Position numbers and translations under genes: made by a program. Under the pieces are notes generated by a model that saw only the letters and a program-made list of their open reading frames with translations, had not been told where the DNA came from and made no database searches. From Pirellulales bacterium (GTDB taxonomy: Bacteria; Planctomycetota; Planctomycetia; Pirellulales; JAICIG01), in the NCBI GenBank assembly GCA_035533075.1, contig DATLUO010000193.1, positions 62,001 to 126,000 of the forward strand: a stretch of DNA of 64,000 nucleotides, in the 5' to 3' direction. The first letter of the stretch is position 1, and every line of letters starts with the position of its first letter. This document shows positions 56,513 to 63,414 of this stretch, piece after piece.

Positions 56513-57433
56513 TCAACGGACTTCAAGGGGCAAGGGAAACTCGACCAATTCCTCCCGCAGCGAATGTTGTTCGACCGTGGCGTCGAACCACTCGCACAAC
56601 ACCCGCAGGCAATCGGCCACCAAATCCTCCGGAGCGCTGGCGCCGGCCGTCACGACGAGCGTTTGCTTGCCCGCGAACCAATCGGCGTCCAGTTCCGCGG
56701 CGCCGTCGACCAGCCAGGCGGGGCAGCCGAATTCGCGGGCCACTTCGACCAAACGGTTGCTGTTCGAGCTGTTGCGGCTTCCCACCACCAGCACGGCGTC
56801 GGCTTCGGGCAACAGCCGCTTGAGCGACTCTTGACGGTTTTGGGTGGCGTAGCAAATGTCTTCTTTGGGCGCTCCGACGCACTGGGGAAACCGCCGTCGC
56901 AGCCGCTCGACGATGATTTGGACTTCGTCCACGCTCAAGGTGGTTTGCGTCAGATAGGCGATCTTGTCGGAGGCGGCGAATTCGAGTCGGTCGACGTCGT
57001 CCGGCGAAGAAACGAGGCGTATGCGCTCGGGAGCGTATCCCAACGTGCCGACCACCTCGTCGTGACCGTCGTGCCCGACGAGCACGATCGTATATCCCTG
57101 CTCGGCGAACCGCAGCGCCTCCAGGTGTACCTTGCGAACGAGCGGGCAAGTGGCGTCGATGACGTTCAACCCGCGGTCGCGCGCGGCCCGCTGCACGGCG
57201 GGCGAAACGCCGTGAGCGCTGTACATCAGGTTGGCCCCCTGCGGCACTTCGGCGAGATCGTCGACGAACACGGCGCCTTTGCCGCGAAAGCGTTCGACGA
57301 CGTGGCGGTTATGCACGATCTCGTGGAACACGTACAGCGGAGTGCCGAACAGCGCCAGGGCGCGGTCGAGCGCGTCGACCGCCATGTGGACTCCGGCGCA
57401 AAAGCCTCGTGGTGCGGCCAGCAAGATTCTCAT
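56513..57433 (-). CDS. ispH: 4-Hydroxy-3-methylbut-2-enyl diphosphate reductase IspH
   Basis: Final step of the MEP pathway, giving IPP and DMAPP with a 4Fe-4S cluster. The three cluster cysteines are in PRGFCAGVHMAVDAL, NVIDATCPLVRKVHLEA and EDICYATQNRQESL. Other blocks: VFHEIVHNRHVV, LVGHDGHDEVVGTLGYAP, IAYLTQTTLSVDEV, GSRNSSNSNRLVEVA and VVTAGASAPEDLV. 306 aa; ATG with GGAGA upstream. It lies downstream of the histidine kinases and the terpene synthase-like gene on the same strand, but a 162-bp repeat-rich gap separates them. Confidence 0.96.
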   Translation of the reverse strand: MRILLAAPRGFCAGVHMAVDALDRALALFGTPLYVFHEIVHNRHVVERFRGKGAVFVDDLAEVPQGANLMYSAHGVSPAVQRAARDRGLNVIDATCPLVRKVHLEALRFAEQGYTIVLVGHDGHDEVVGTLGYAPERIRLVSSPDDVDRLEFAASDKIAYLTQTTLSVDEVQIIVERLRRRFPQCVGAPKEDICYATQNRQESLKRLLPEADAVLVVGSRNSSNSNRLVEVAREFGCPAWLVDGAAELDADWFAGKQTLVVTAGASAPEDLVADCLRVLCEWFDATVEQHSLREELVEFPLPLEVR

Positions 57434-57595: not shown

Positions 57596-58759
57596 CTAAC
57601 TCACACACTCATAAAGGGCAACTAAACCTGGGTCATTGGAGGTACTGATCGGGGTGGCGGGCCGTGAGGCAGTTTCCTCGGGCATGACGAGGGGCAACCG
57701 CACGGTAAACGTCGTTCCACGGCCGACCGCCGTTTCGCAAGCGATCCTTCCGCCGTGCGCCTCGATGATGCCCTTCACGATGTCGAGCCCCAGACCGTTC
57801 CCTTCGTCGCCTTTCGTCGTAAAAAACGGCTCCCAGATGCGCTCCGCAACGTCGGGCGCCATACCGCAGCCGTTGTCGCGCACGGTGATGACGGCGTCGG
57901 AGCGGTTGGCATCGAGTTGAAGCACGATCTGGCCGTCCGCCCGCTCGCGAATCGCGTAGGCCGCGTTCTTCAGCAAGTTGACGAGCACTTGCTGCAGCTT
58001 GACGGCGTGCCCCTTGACCGACGGCTCGGCGTGGATGCGCAGCGAAAGCCGGCTGTGCGGCAACGTGTTGTCGTAGCGCAGGAAAGCCAGCAGCTCGTGC
58101 AGCACGCCGGCCAGCGAGAGCGGTTGCAGCTCGATCCCCGTCTGCTCGAACCGCACGAACGACTTCACTTCGTCGACAAGCTGCACCAGGCGGTCGTAGG
58201 TCTGCCGGGCAAGAGCCGCCGTTTGCACCAGCTCGTCGTGTTCCGCATAGCGCTCCTCGATCAGCTCCAGCAGCGGCAGCATGCAGAGTTGGTTGCCCAT
58301 CTCGTGAGCGATTCTAGCGGCGGAGCGGCCCAGCGCGGCGCAGCGGTCGATGGCCACCAGCCGCTCGGTGAGCGCCATGTTGGCCACCGACAAGTCGTAG
58401 GCCTCGATGGCCCGCGAGAGCACCGACAAGATATCGTGCCGTTCCCAGGGCTTCTTCAGGAAGTAATACACCTGCCCTTGGTTGATGGCGTCGAGCATCG
58501 CTTTCGAGTCGGCGTAGCCCGTAAGCATCACGCGCTTGCTGAGCGGGTGCTGGCGGCGCAGGATCTCGAACAGCTCGGCGCCGGTCATGCCGGGCATCCG
58601 CTGATCGGCCACGATGACGGGGAACGATTGCCGCCCGAGCAGGTCGAGGGCCTTCGCCGCGCTGCTGGCCGTATGCACGTTGTACGTCGACTCGAACGTC
58701 GCCTCGAAGACGACGAGATTGTCGACTTCATCGTCAACATACAAGATGTCTCGTTTCAT
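57596..58759 (-). CDS. Hybrid response regulator/histidine kinase
   Basis: 387 aa. Receiver domain at 1-120: acidic pocket YVDDE, phospho-acceptor Asp in IVADQRMPGMTG, ThrGly in VMLTGYAD, Lys in YFLKKPW. HisKA-like: RSAARIAHEMGNQLCMLPLL with the phospho-His. HATPase_c: N box VLVNLLKNAAYAI, DNGCGMAPDVAERIWEPFFT, GNGLGLDIVKGIIEAHGG. Soluble. It overlaps the preceding sensor kinase by 26 bp, so the two are made together, probably as a phosphorelay. No output domain; target unknown. Confidence 0.92.
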   Translation of the reverse strand: MKRDILYVDDEVDNLVVFEATFESTYNVHTASSAAKALDLLGRQSFPVIVADQRMPGMTGAELFEILRRQHPLSKRVMLTGYADSKAMLDAINQGQVYYFLKKPWERHDILSVLSRAIEAYDLSVANMALTERLVAIDRCAALGRSAARIAHEMGNQLCMLPLLELIEERYAEHDELVQTAALARQTYDRLVQLVDEVKSFVRFEQTGIELQPLSLAGVLHELLAFLRYDNTLPHSRLSLRIHAEPSVKGHAVKLQQVLVNLLKNAAYAIRERADGQIVLQLDANRSDAVITVRDNGCGMAPDVAERIWEPFFTTKGDEGNGLGLDIVKGIIEAHGGRIACETAVGRGTTFTVRLPLVMPEETASRPATPISTSNDPGLVALYECVS

Positions 58760-60656
58760 AATCGGCTCCTACCGTAGGAAAAAGGGCCCCGGCCGGTCGG
58801 CAGCCAAGGCCCGGGTCGCCGCCATGCACGCCGGCCTGGCGAGGAAAAGTGACAATGAATTCGGCACCGTCGCCGGGCGAGCTCTGGCAGGCGATCGTGC
58901 CGCCGAGCTTGTGCATGATGCCGTAGCTGATCGACAGGCCCAGTCCCGTGCCCAGGCCCGGTTCTTTGGTCGTGAAAAAAGGATCGAAAATGCGGCCCTT
59001 GACGTCGTCGGGAATGCCGGGGCCGTTGTCGCGGATGGAAACCCGGATCATCTCGCCGTCGCCGCGGGTCGTCACCAGGATGCGGCCTTCGCCTTCGATC
59101 GCCTGTTCGGCGTTGCTCAGAATGTTCATGAACACCTGATTGAGATGGCCGTGCGGCCCGTGGACCGTGTCGATCTGGCCATAGTCGCGCTCCAGCACGA
59201 TGCGGTGCTTGACCTGGCTGAACAACAGGTTGAGGCACATGTCGAGCGATTCGTGCAAGTCGAAATCGTCGAAGTCTTCTTTGCCGGGGTGCGAGAAGGT
59301 TTTTAGATCGGCGATGATGCGGGCGGTGCGCGTGGCGCCGTTTTCGATGACCGTGGCCAGCGAAAACAGCCGCCGAAACAGCCGGTCGATCTCGTCGCGC
59401 GACTCCGGGCCGCACTCGAAAGGCTGGCCGGCCAGCAGCGGGGCGAGCGCGCCTTGCAAGCGGTGGGTGCTTTGGGTCAGCGGTTGGATGCCGTTGTAAA
59501 CCGCGTTGATCGAGTTGTTGATCTCGTGGGCCAGCCCGGCCACGAGCTGGCCGAGCGAGCTCATCTTTTCGGAATGGATCAATTGCCCCTGCATCGCCGC
59601 CAGATCGTGGTAGGCCGCTTCCAGCTCGGCCAGCGACCGCTTCAGCGAGCGGCGGCTCTTGGAGAGTTGCCGCGTGCGCGTGCGGACCTTCGCCTCCAAA
59701 TTGACGTTCAAGTCGCGGATCGTATGGTCGTTGGTCTGCAGCCGCTCGACCATCGCGTTGAACTGTCGGGCCAGCGAGTCGATTTCGTCGGTGGTGGTGG
59801 TTTGCAGCCGCTCGCTGAGCAACCCTTGTTGCACCCGTTTCATGGCGTCGACCATCAGCCGCACGCGCGAAGCGATGGAAGTGGCCAAAAGCCGCGAAAG
59901 CACCAGGCCGGTGACCGCCGCCGCCAGGGTCATGATGACCGTGTGCTGCCGCAGGTTGGCCACCGCCTGGGCCTGGTTGCTCGGATTGTTGATGATGTCC
60001 AGTGCCCGCTGGTTGGCCAGTCCGCCAATCATCACCGCGGTCAGCACCACGGCTCCGCCGACGCAGATATTGAGCCGCACGTGCAGCCGGCCGGCGGGCA
60101 TGGCCTCGAAATCGACCGGCACGCCGCGCTCGACCAGGTAGCGCACCAACGGCGCCAGCCAGCGCTCTTCCATAAAGAACGCGATCAGCAACACCGCGGC
60201 GATGCCCAAGCAGCCGGCGATGCCCGTTTGCACCAGCGGGCCGATGGAAACACCGTCGAGGGCCCGCAGGGTGGCGCAGATCGGCAAAACGATGGCGATG
60301 GGATCGATCAGGCTCTCACGCCAACATTGTCGACCCGGAAAGAGGACGACTTCGGCTCCGACTTTTGCCGCCAGTTCGGCGTCGACGGGCTGGCCGTCGC
60401 GCAGCAAGTCGAGCGCGCGGCGTGCATGAGGCGTGTAATACAGACCCAGCAAGGCGCTGAGCACGATGCCCCACGACACAAACCACGCCGCGGCCACGAA
60501 AAAGTGCCGTTCGACGTCGGCCGGAAAGGAGAGCATCAGGGTCACGTAGTAGACGCTCAGCAGGCCGCCCAGCGAGGCCAGCAGGCGCGTGGAGAGCATC
60601 ATCGCCAGGATGTAGGCGCCTCCGAGACGTTCAGGTTGAAAACGCTGCTGGAACAT
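58734..60656 (-). CDS. Membrane sensor histidine kinase with HAMP domain
   Basis: 640 aa. TM segments at about 18-45 and 55-78, more hydrophobic stretches around 118-160 and 190-215, then a TM before HAMP (about 245-320; [38 protein letters not shown]). A coiled coil leads to HisKA with [20 protein letters not shown], then HATPase_c: [36 protein letters not shown] and [18 protein letters not shown]. All boxes are intact. It lies 33 nt after the terpene synthase-like gene and overlaps the hybrid kinase, so the three form an operon. Confidence 0.92.
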
Positions 60657-60689: not shown

Positions 60690-62987
60690 TTACTTCGCGC
60701 CTCGGCTGACCAGTTCGGTCTGTAAAAGTCGATCCAGGCCGCGTAGAGTGACTGCCAGGTCGACGGAGGTCACCTGCGGCAGCAGCCGTTGAAATTGGAT
60801 TCTGTGCTCTCGCCAGCGGCGGTGAAAATAGGCTTCGTGGCCGCCGCGCGTGATGGCGGCCGTGATTTGCGCGGGCGATCCGTGCATCAACTGGTCCACC
60901 GTCAGGTCGTGGTTGGCCACGGCATGGGCAAAAACTCCGCTGCTGTAATCGCGGTCGTGGATTTCGCGCTGCCAGGTGGTCATCAGGTTGCCGATGCGGG
61001 CCATCCATTGCGCGTGCCACATCGCCTCACGCAGCCGGCCGAGCTCGGTCACGCTGAAATCGGGGCTGCACATCAAGTCGATCATCGCAAAGCCCAGCAG
61101 GCCCATGCCCTGTGGCGAATAACCATCATGTTCTACGACGTTAAGAATGTATGGGTTACTGTTGACCAGATGGGAATAGTGAACGGTGTTGAAGAGTTGC
61201 GTCAGGTCGAATTGCAGAAGCATCGTGTAGGGGTCGTAGCAAGGGTATCGCTTGGCGCGACGCCAGACCACGTCCCACACCTCGCAGGTAAATTCGCCGT
61301 AGCGCCGGTCGGCGGCCCCCAGACCCTGCAATTGGGGCCTCTCGTGGTGGGTCAGTTTCAATAGTTCATCGAGCAAATCCCCGCGGCCCTGCTGATCGGC
61401 CACGTCGTCGACCAGCACGTTGACCATGCCGGCCAGAACTTTCGTATCGCAGACGTCGGCCCGCAGCGCCGGCCGCACACAGTCGAGCGTCGTCAGCTCG
61501 ACGCCCTGCAGGCACCACTTCCAGAGATAGCCACCGCGCTCCCCCACTTGCTCGTAAGCGGCGATCCACGACGCCAACTCGGCGCTGAATTGCTTGGCCA
61601 GAATCTCCTCGCGTTCCGCCTGGGCGGCCTCGGGCTGCCGCTGGGCGCCAAGCGGTTCCGCCCGATCGAAGCGCAACTGCCCGCCGGTAGCCGACGCATC
61701 GAGCGGTGTTTCGATGACCGTCAGCCCGTCTCGCCCCAGAGAAAGGGCCAGCAAGTCTTCGAAGTGCCGCAGGTCACGGGCGGCGACCGTGGTCTCGGTC
61801 GGCGACAGCGCCGGCAACAGGTGAGATTTCGCCGGCGAGCGTGGGTCTCGAAACACCACCGCCGTCGCAATCAGCTCGACCTCTTCGGGCAACGTCCCAA
61901 GAGCGGTTGCCGCAGCGGCCCATTGGCGTTCGGTCAGCAGCAGCACTGGCCGGCAGCCGCCGGCCGCCAGGCCGATCGAACGCTGCCAAACGTAAGCGTC
62001 GCCGGCGCCGGAGGCCACGTAACGCTGGGCAAGACGGCGCGCGAAGTCGGCCGTTGCCGCCGGGCGGAGGTCGACCATGACCACCTGCGGTTCGCCGAGC
62101 GCCATCGCGACCAGTGCCGATTCGACCGCGGCCGACGTCGCTTTTTCCGACAACGAGTCGGCGGCCGTGCCGGCCGCTTCCGGCGGCGCCGAGCGCTCCG
62201 CGAAGAGACGGCCTGGATTGGCCGTCGGCAAATCATCGTCGCCGCGCGTCGCTTCCGCGGAGCGCAGCCGCAGCATGACCGATGAGGCATGCCCCATGAC
62301 TTTCAGCGCGTGAAAAATAGAAACCAGATCGTCGCCCGTGACGCCGCTCAGCAGTCCGACGTGAGGCAGGTCCGATCGCGAAAGAAGTTCTTCCAGCGTC
62401 TTGCGGCTCTGCGCCGCGTCGTACAACGGACCGGCGTCGTCGACCTCGCACCAGACGACGAGCAGCCGCTTGGCGCGGGCCAACAGCCGGATCTGCTCTT
62501 GGCACGCCGGCGACAACGACGAACGCGCGTCGGCGACGAGTACGATCCAATGATCGGCAAGCAGTACGTCGCGGGCCTGGACCACTCCCAAGGCGGTGGA
62601 CAGAATCTCGGCGGCGCACGGTGCGTCGGCATCGCTGGCTTTTGGCCCTGGGTCGTTGAGCGGCGGAAAGTGGCCGCCCGAAGTCGCGCGATCGTGGGCC
62701 GGATCGAGCCGCAGGCCGCGGCCGGTGGGCACGGTGGGCAGATCGAGCATTTGGGCCGAATCGGCCACAATCCGGTCGCGGTCCAGATCGAAGGCGCGGC
62801 GCAGGGCGACGGCCAAGTCGGCCGCGGTGATCAGGCTGCCGCCGGCCGCCCCTTTTGCTTCGAGCAACGACGCCAGCCGGTCGTTCGACAGCGCGGCCGG
62901 CGCCGTGGCGGGCGCAAGGGGCGCGAAGTGCGCGCCGCGCAACGACTGCATCGCGTTAAACAGATGACTTACCGAAAGCTTACTCAT
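60690..62987 (-). CDS. DXS-like pseudoenzyme fused to a class I terpene synthase-like domain
   Basis: Start at ATG 62987 with a strong GGAGGTGC; 765 aa. Residues about 25-450 follow DXS: EILSTALGVVQARDVLLADH aligns with the SxALGxAxARD block, but the thiamine motif GDG...NN reads ADARSSLS...LL (about 152-169). DLPHVGLLSGVTGDDLVSIF matches DXS GPVDGHD, and VESALVAMALGEPQVVMVDL opens the pyrimidine domain, in which the catalytic Glu region (IAEQHAV) reads VWQRSIG. Residues about 490-765 are helical with LVDDVADQQ (DDxxD, 526-531) and NLMTTWQRE (NSE, 667-675), spaced as in class I terpene synthases. Product unknown. Confidence 0.75.
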   Translation of the reverse strand: MSKLSVSHLFNAMQSLRGAHFAPLAPATAPAALSNDRLASLLEAKGAAGGSLITAADLAVALRRAFDLDRDRIVADSAQMLDLPTVPTGRGLRLDPAHDRATSGGHFPPLNDPGPKASDADAPCAAEILSTALGVVQARDVLLADHWIVLVADARSSLSPACQEQIRLLARAKRLLVVWCEVDDAGPLYDAAQSRKTLEELLSRSDLPHVGLLSGVTGDDLVSIFHALKVMGHASSVMLRLRSAEATRGDDDLPTANPGRLFAERSAPPEAAGTAADSLSEKATSAAVESALVAMALGEPQVVMVDLRPAATADFARRLAQRYVASGAGDAYVWQRSIGLAAGGCRPVLLLTERQWAAAATALGTLPEEVELIATAVVFRDPRSPAKSHLLPALSPTETTVAARDLRHFEDLLALSLGRDGLTVIETPLDASATGGQLRFDRAEPLGAQRQPEAAQAEREEILAKQFSAELASWIAAYEQVGERGGYLWKWCLQGVELTTLDCVRPALRADVCDTKVLAGMVNVLVDDVADQQGRGDLLDELLKLTHHERPQLQGLGAADRRYGEFTCEVWDVVWRRAKRYPCYDPYTMLLQFDLTQLFNTVHYSHLVNSNPYILNVVEHDGYSPQGMGLLGFAMIDLMCSPDFSVTELGRLREAMWHAQWMARIGNLMTTWQREIHDRDYSSGVFAHAVANHDLTVDQLMHGSPAQITAAITRGGHEAYFHRRWREHRIQFQRLLPQVTSVDLAVTLRGLDRLLQTELVSRGAK

Positions 62988-63358: not shown

Positions 63359-63414
63359 AACCCGAAGCGCAAGCGAGGCCGGGCAACGAACTTACCTCGC
63401 TTGCGCTTTGGGTT
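63359..63414. repeat. 20-bp hairpin repeat
   Basis: Arm AACCCGAAGCGCAAGCGAGG (63359-63378) pairs with 63395-63414 with one G-T wobble and a 16-nt loop. It has no T-tract; probably another dispersed intergenic hairpin of this genome. Confidence 0.8.

Follow-up and report, generated by a model that had tools for sequence, protein, structure and literature searches.

A decayed DXS fused to a likely divergent terpene synthase, and its co-occurring six-transmembrane kinase, in planctomycetes

The signal of the CqsA/CqsS system is an alpha-hydroxyketone. The CqsS-type kinase, which has six transmembrane helices (6TM), binds a lipophilic ligand, binding being thought to take place within the membrane segments (PMC4821796), and a lipid-receptor role has been reported for the 6TM domains of adenylyl cyclases (PMC11606603, PMC12505454). 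The RpfF/RpfC/RpfG (DSF) system holds a synthase, a membrane hybrid kinase and an HD-GYP regulator in one locus. The sesquiterpene synthases NS1 and NP1 of Nostoc cluster with a P450 (PMC4390852), and a two-component protein is reported to lie near them (Agger 2008). No bacterial signal system is known to us that possesses a dedicated terpene synthase together with its own receptor kinase, and our literature searches brought none to light.

The locus presented here lies within a stretch of 64,000 nucleotides from a Pirellulales bacterium (hereafter the window) and encodes a fusion of a decayed 1-deoxy-D-xylulose-5-phosphate synthase (DXS) to a terpene synthase-like domain. The fusion ORF starts at an ATG at 62987 with the ribosome-binding site GGAGGT just before it; a sensor histidine kinase begins 34 bp past the fusion gene on the same strand, and the gene of a response-regulator receiver joined to a histidine kinase ATPase (RR-kinase) overlaps the preceding kinase gene by 26 bp. 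The features, in window coordinates, are as follows.

60690..62987, minus strand: fusion gene, 765 aa, pseudo-DXS plus class I terpene synthase-like domain
61653..62915, minus strand: pseudo-DXS region, approximately residues 25-445 (alignment with intact and decayed DXS fusions)
62517..62534, minus strand: ADARSS, replacing the ThDP-binding GDG motif (alignment)
62472..62489, minus strand: RLLARA, replacing NN of the ThDP motif (alignment)
61986..62003, minus strand: GDAYVW, replacing the catalytic Glu segment (xCESHAV / AEQHAV), with Asp at the Glu column (alignment)
60690..61640, minus strand: terpene synthase-like domain, residues 450-765, all-helical (AF2, Foldseek, sub-threshold Pfam matches in relatives)
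61395..61409, minus strand: Asp-rich motif DDVAD, residues 527-531 (conserved in the homologue alignment)
60963..60989, minus strand: NSE-type motif NLMTTWQRE, residues 667-675 (conserved; aligns with the NSE of known synthases)
58734..60656, minus strand: membrane sensor histidine kinase with 6TM, HAMP, HisKA and HATPase
59907..60656, minus strand: 6TM sensor domain, first 250 aa of the kinase (profile search)
59514-59528: HEINN box of the sensor histidine kinase
57596..58759, minus strand: RR-kinase
56513..57433, minus strand: cluster-dedicated IspH paralogue, Fe-S cysteines and catalytic residues intact

A palindromic repeat, consisting of two inverted copies of CCTCGCTTGCGCTTCGGGTT, is found upstream of the operon at window positions 63359-63414.

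As in CqsA/CqsS and LqsA/LqsS, a synthase gene lies here beside that of a 6TM receptor histidine kinase and the ligand is hydrophobic (PMC4821796 for the receptor, the rest being general knowledge, and the ligand in our case only inferred), whereas the synthase is terpene-type instead of a PLP acyltransferase and the kinase carries a HAMP domain. The likeness of the 6TM domain to CqsS is one of six-helix architecture and gene context and is not a tested homology. The combination of synthase, membrane kinase and HD-GYP regulator known from RpfF/RpfC/RpfG recurs in a second cluster of the same genome, on contig C251, although the synthases are unrelated and the window cluster is without HD-GYP. 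The Nostoc clusters likewise place a terpene synthase near a two-component protein, but theirs belongs to a canonical synthase family, has a P450 partner and is not fused to DXS.

Direct HMM searches gave only marginal matches of the window protein to DXS (NCBIfam DXS E=0.0047; Pfam DXP_synthase_N E=0.18), and the TIGR00204 cut-off was not reached, this model being unlisted and the best DXS model scoring 15.5 bits against 395. Residues 14-370 are nevertheless 35% identical to the fusion L024 (E=9.5e-31), true DXS is matched by the fusions L024, L025, L029 and L058 (E=6e-11 to 5e-31), and TIGR00204 itself by L025 and L058 (E ~1e-34); the homology is thus settled, since these intermediate fusions bridge the window protein to genuine DXS. 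The DXS origin is proven by L035, from a Phycisphaerae MAG, because it is the same fusion with an intact, full-length DXS: 915 aa long, with a DXS half scoring 712 bits against the TIGR00204 cut-off of 466, all of the GDG, NN, AEQHAV and DRAG-H motifs present, and a synthase domain sharing 50% identity with the standalone synthase of C251. The best Foldseek matches of the pseudo-DXS region were all DXS, a result which is not independent, as the MSA behind the model contained DXS rows. An unrelated fold for this half was rejected on the strength of L035 and of the L058 and L025 intermediates, and an assembly error as the origin of the fusion was rejected because the fusion is present in several independent genomes.

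The window protein differs from DXS in having neither the ThDP nor the catalytic motifs, and almost the whole of the C-terminal transketolase domain is missing. The alignment shows a decayed DXS half in nine other fusions, where the ThDP and catalytic motifs are also gone (except that L059 keeps the Glu) and no DXS motif is conserved throughout. Ancestry and motif loss are therefore shown, while the catalytic inactivity of the N-terminal half is inferred from them.

A first-pass annotation made from sequence alone had placed the ORF at 60690-62987 and described it as a dead DXS derivative joined to a class I terpene synthase-like half; the position held (minus strand, 765 aa), and the identity proposed was supported for both halves. 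Its readings of ADA for GDG and LL for NN were borne out by the alignment. The "VWQRSIG" that it put at the catalytic Glu was out of register, the column holding Asp (AGDAYVW), and its equation of SGVTGDD with GPVDGHD failed, GLLSGVT being aligned there instead. Homologues with the same fusion, for which it had proposed a search, were found, including L035 with its intact DXS. It knew of no described protein with this fusion; neither a DXS-synthase fusion nor a planctomycete synthase-kinase pair was found described in the open-access literature searched, which omits most subscription journals. The scaffold or sensor of MEP intermediates that it suggested for the N-terminus has no direct support, relatives suggesting dispensability. 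It missed the conserved neighbours (receptor kinase, RR-kinase and IspH), as well as the fact that synthase and 6TM kinase are strictly paired.

The C-terminal half is likely to be a divergent class I terpene synthase, an assignment resting on individually modest items in combination with the spacing of its motifs; its catalysis and product are inferred, and by sequence it is only weakly linked to known synthases. The AF2 model of residues 450-765 is all-helical with a pLDDT of ~95, having been built from an alignment (single-sequence AlphaFold of the whole protein gave a pLDDT of 38). DDVAD and NLMTTWQRE are separated by 140 residues, and nearly all of the 28 homologues that were aligned retain DDxx(D/E) and N-x-x-x-(S/T)-x-x-x-E. 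A helical C-terminal half with these two motifs about 140 residues apart, as described in the first-pass annotation, was thus confirmed, and neither of the outcomes that it had named as refuting, an unrelated fold in either half (AF2 model, Foldseek) or the loss of DDVAD and the NSE-like motif in homologues, was seen.

When viral structures in BFVD were searched with Foldseek, an Orpheovirus terpenoid synthase came second (probability 1.00, TM 0.55 on target, E=0.02) in a list with similar giant-virus proteins around it; against the PDB, DXS and a few other transketolase-type proteins masked any matches to this half, for which that search is uninformative. Pfam Terpene_syn_C_2 was matched below cut-off in 3 of the 28 relatives (best E=0.004) and left the window domain unmatched, at cut-off the family escapes every Pfam and NCBIfam model, and PDB sequence searches with the window protein and with profiles returned nothing significant. 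A weak HMM match of the family to Stt4548 aligns both metal motifs. HHalign against ten known synthases, drawn from Streptomyces, Nostoc and archaeal plasmids with a geosmin synthase query serving only as bait, gave E=0.0038 and a probability of 9% with NSE placed on NSE, compared with 0.29 for an unrelated control. Controls were also sought by searching 294 planctomycete genomes for Terpene_syn_C_2, where the sole match was a polyprenyl synthetase.

The family thus shares with class I terpene synthases (Terpene_syn_C_2, Orpheovirus, Stt4548) the all-helical fold and DDxxD and NSE-type motifs ~140 residues apart, but it remains below every cut-off, is fused to DXS or tied to a kinase gene, and does not conserve the pyrophosphate-sensor Arg. 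This residue, 46 positions before the NSE (R183/N229 in the known-synthase alignment), is invariant in the known bacterial set and is replaced here by His or Asp. For the C-terminal RY region, most members have an SRG with its Arg at a similar distance, and Gln, Ser, Val or Thr is found in some.

A 6TM-HAMP kinase lies near the synthase in 21/21 planctomycete loci with enough flanking DNA, directly adjoining it in 19 and standing one to two ORFs away in L031 and L035. A profile of the 6TM domain, made from the first 250 aa of the kinase, was searched in about 396 Planctomycetia genomes and found the domain in the 13 genomes that carry the synthase, once per synthase, with one extra and weak match in a genome without synthase (G372, E=4e-5). 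Within this sample the synthase and the 6TM domain co-occur strictly; the chance of such an overlap under random placement is ~2e-23, with the reservation that these genomes, coming from 11-12 genera, lack independence. Being restricted to synthase-bearing genomes apart from that weak match, the 6TM domain is not a general-purpose sensor. The operon pairing as such is equally compatible with pathway regulation and with ligand sensing, and no exporter is common to all clusters.

The window cluster also contains an IspH paralogue that scores 310 bits against the TIGR00216 cut-off of 188, in a genome with three IspH copies and two intact DXS genes in total. Such a paralogue, with its key residues (Fe-S cysteines and active site) kept, is part of the cluster in ten loci, and these ten branch apart from a 13-member housekeeping clade, requiring two label changes versus 8.5 in shuffles. 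The C251 synthase, a standalone paralogue of 49% identity, lies beside MEP enzymes (an intact DXS, IspG and IspH), signalling proteins (an HD-GYP regulator, a phosphorelay kinase and a 6TM kinase) and an RND transporter. Two synthase clusters contain FAD-dependent oxidoreductases (L024:12942-14240 and L035:10921-12201), which might possibly tailor the product.

Proteins resembling DXS or transketolase are also encoded in several of the genomes (L144, L145 and others), at a great distance from the synthase clusters. Long-branch IspH-like proteins were observed as well, namely L112/L115 (G144, G308), L111/L103 (G476) and L114 (G273), with altered motifs (GMCFG, GELVHN, CQPTKDR); they belong neither to the housekeeping nor to the cluster IspH.

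In the synthase tree, fused, truncated and standalone forms are interleaved, and L035 and L063 (G476), which fall outside the class of the window, are both fused. An early fusion followed by repeated decay fits this tree and is possible, support being limited; no further intact fusions were found in the class of G476, and no homologues were found in phages. Haloarchaeal homologues, annotated as hypothetical, are 29-35% identical, and both metal motifs are kept in nearly all members, these remote ones included. Haloarchaeal synthases adjoin HTH, HalOD1 or Bat regulators in 3/4 loci read, and remote synthases are found near other kinases (Ser/Thr kinase-AAA-GAF-HK in L080 and L083, GAF-PAS-HK in L082).

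On Halorussus plasmids of two species (L085:5764-8957 and L087:5859-8966) a synthase homologue has a tryptophanase gene in its vicinity and adjoins or overlaps an HTH regulator of the FilR1/HVO_A0261 type, followed by HalOD1; a link to indole can be entertained at these loci as no more than a possibility. The 9.5 Mb genome G516 carries four divergent synthase copies (L079:10344-12456, L080 and L081), among them a tandem pair whose second copy is without the DD motif; a SAM methyltransferase lies next to one of the copies.

We propose that the product of the divergent synthase is sensed by the partner 6TM kinase, the DXS half being dead, a reading that we consider as likely to be wrong as right, with catalysis, product, ligand and output all inferred. 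The fusion would probably have begun as a working DXS-synthase enzyme, as it may still be in L035, coupling the first MEP step to the last cyclisation, after which the DXS half would have decayed in most lineages and been lost in some. The synthase domain would convert a prenyl diphosphate into a hydrophobic terpenoid, IspH (together with DXS and IspG in C251) would raise the supply of precursor, and the 6TM domain of the partner kinase would bind the terpenoid in the membrane and start a phosphorelay, predicted to end in an HD-GYP regulator in some clusters. Ligand binding by the 6TM domain is proposed by analogy, there being no binding data, and whether the product would act within or between cells is likewise a matter of inference. 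Against the proposal stand the facts that no family member is characterised, that the sensor Arg is not conserved and that sequence ties the family only weakly to known synthases.

The main rival, which remains possible, is an ordinary terpenoid cluster making a structural or defensive terpenoid, whose kinase would respond to some cue unrelated to the product (membrane state, redox or light) and set production accordingly. Regulators are common in biosynthetic clusters, the IspH, IspG, DXS and RND transporter of C251 resemble a production cluster, and the FAD oxidoreductases of L024 and L035 are candidates for tailoring enzymes. Against this, no DNA-binding regulator was seen in the best-studied clusters (window and C251), their outputs being RR-kinases and HD-GYP, and a general cue would not call for a sensor domain that goes with the synthase alone, as this one does.

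It is also possible that the N-terminal half has retained a function, such as oligomerisation, allostery or recruitment of DXS or IspH, and is not a decaying relic; this reading covers the N-terminal half only and is compatible with either model of the synthase half. In its favour, the N-terminal half is still mostly folded in the model, is under some constraint (omega ~0.3 between L056 and L057) and persists in many lineages. On the other hand, that constraint is ~3x weaker than on the synthase half (L056/L057 omega 0.30 vs 0.10), the decayed fusions retain no common DXS motif, and the N-terminal half looks dispensable because it is truncated in several relatives (L056, L057, L061 and L062) and absent from standalone forms.

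That the synthase-like domain is instead a non-enzymatic prenyl-diphosphate receptor, controlling the kinase by contact and reporting isoprenoid flux with the pseudo-DXS aiding as MEP sensor or scaffold, is unlikely: half of the protein being a pseudoenzyme, the missing pyrophosphate-sensor Arg and the strict kinase pairing speak for it, but both metal motifs are kept nearly everywhere, even in remote haloarchaeal members, dedicated MEP enzymes suit synthesis more than sensing, and the N-terminal half is missing from many members.

Returning to the preferred reading of a terpenoid sensed by its partner kinase, a bolder version may be put forward, in which these loci constitute a terpenoid signalling system, each terpene being a pheromone or second messenger for its co-inherited 6TM kinase, fed by a private MEP branch and derived from a fusion of the first and last steps; for this version the balance tips towards disbelief. 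If it is true, terpenes would be added to the few classes of autoinducer known in bacteria, and ligand-receptor pairs would be at hand for testing, given that synthase and kinase are strictly paired one to one. With its DXS half intact in a single lineage and dead in most, the fusion presents a clear case of the passage from metabolic fusion to pseudoenzyme, and the likely synthase half adds to planctomycetes and haloarchaea a terpene synthase family missed by current profile libraries.
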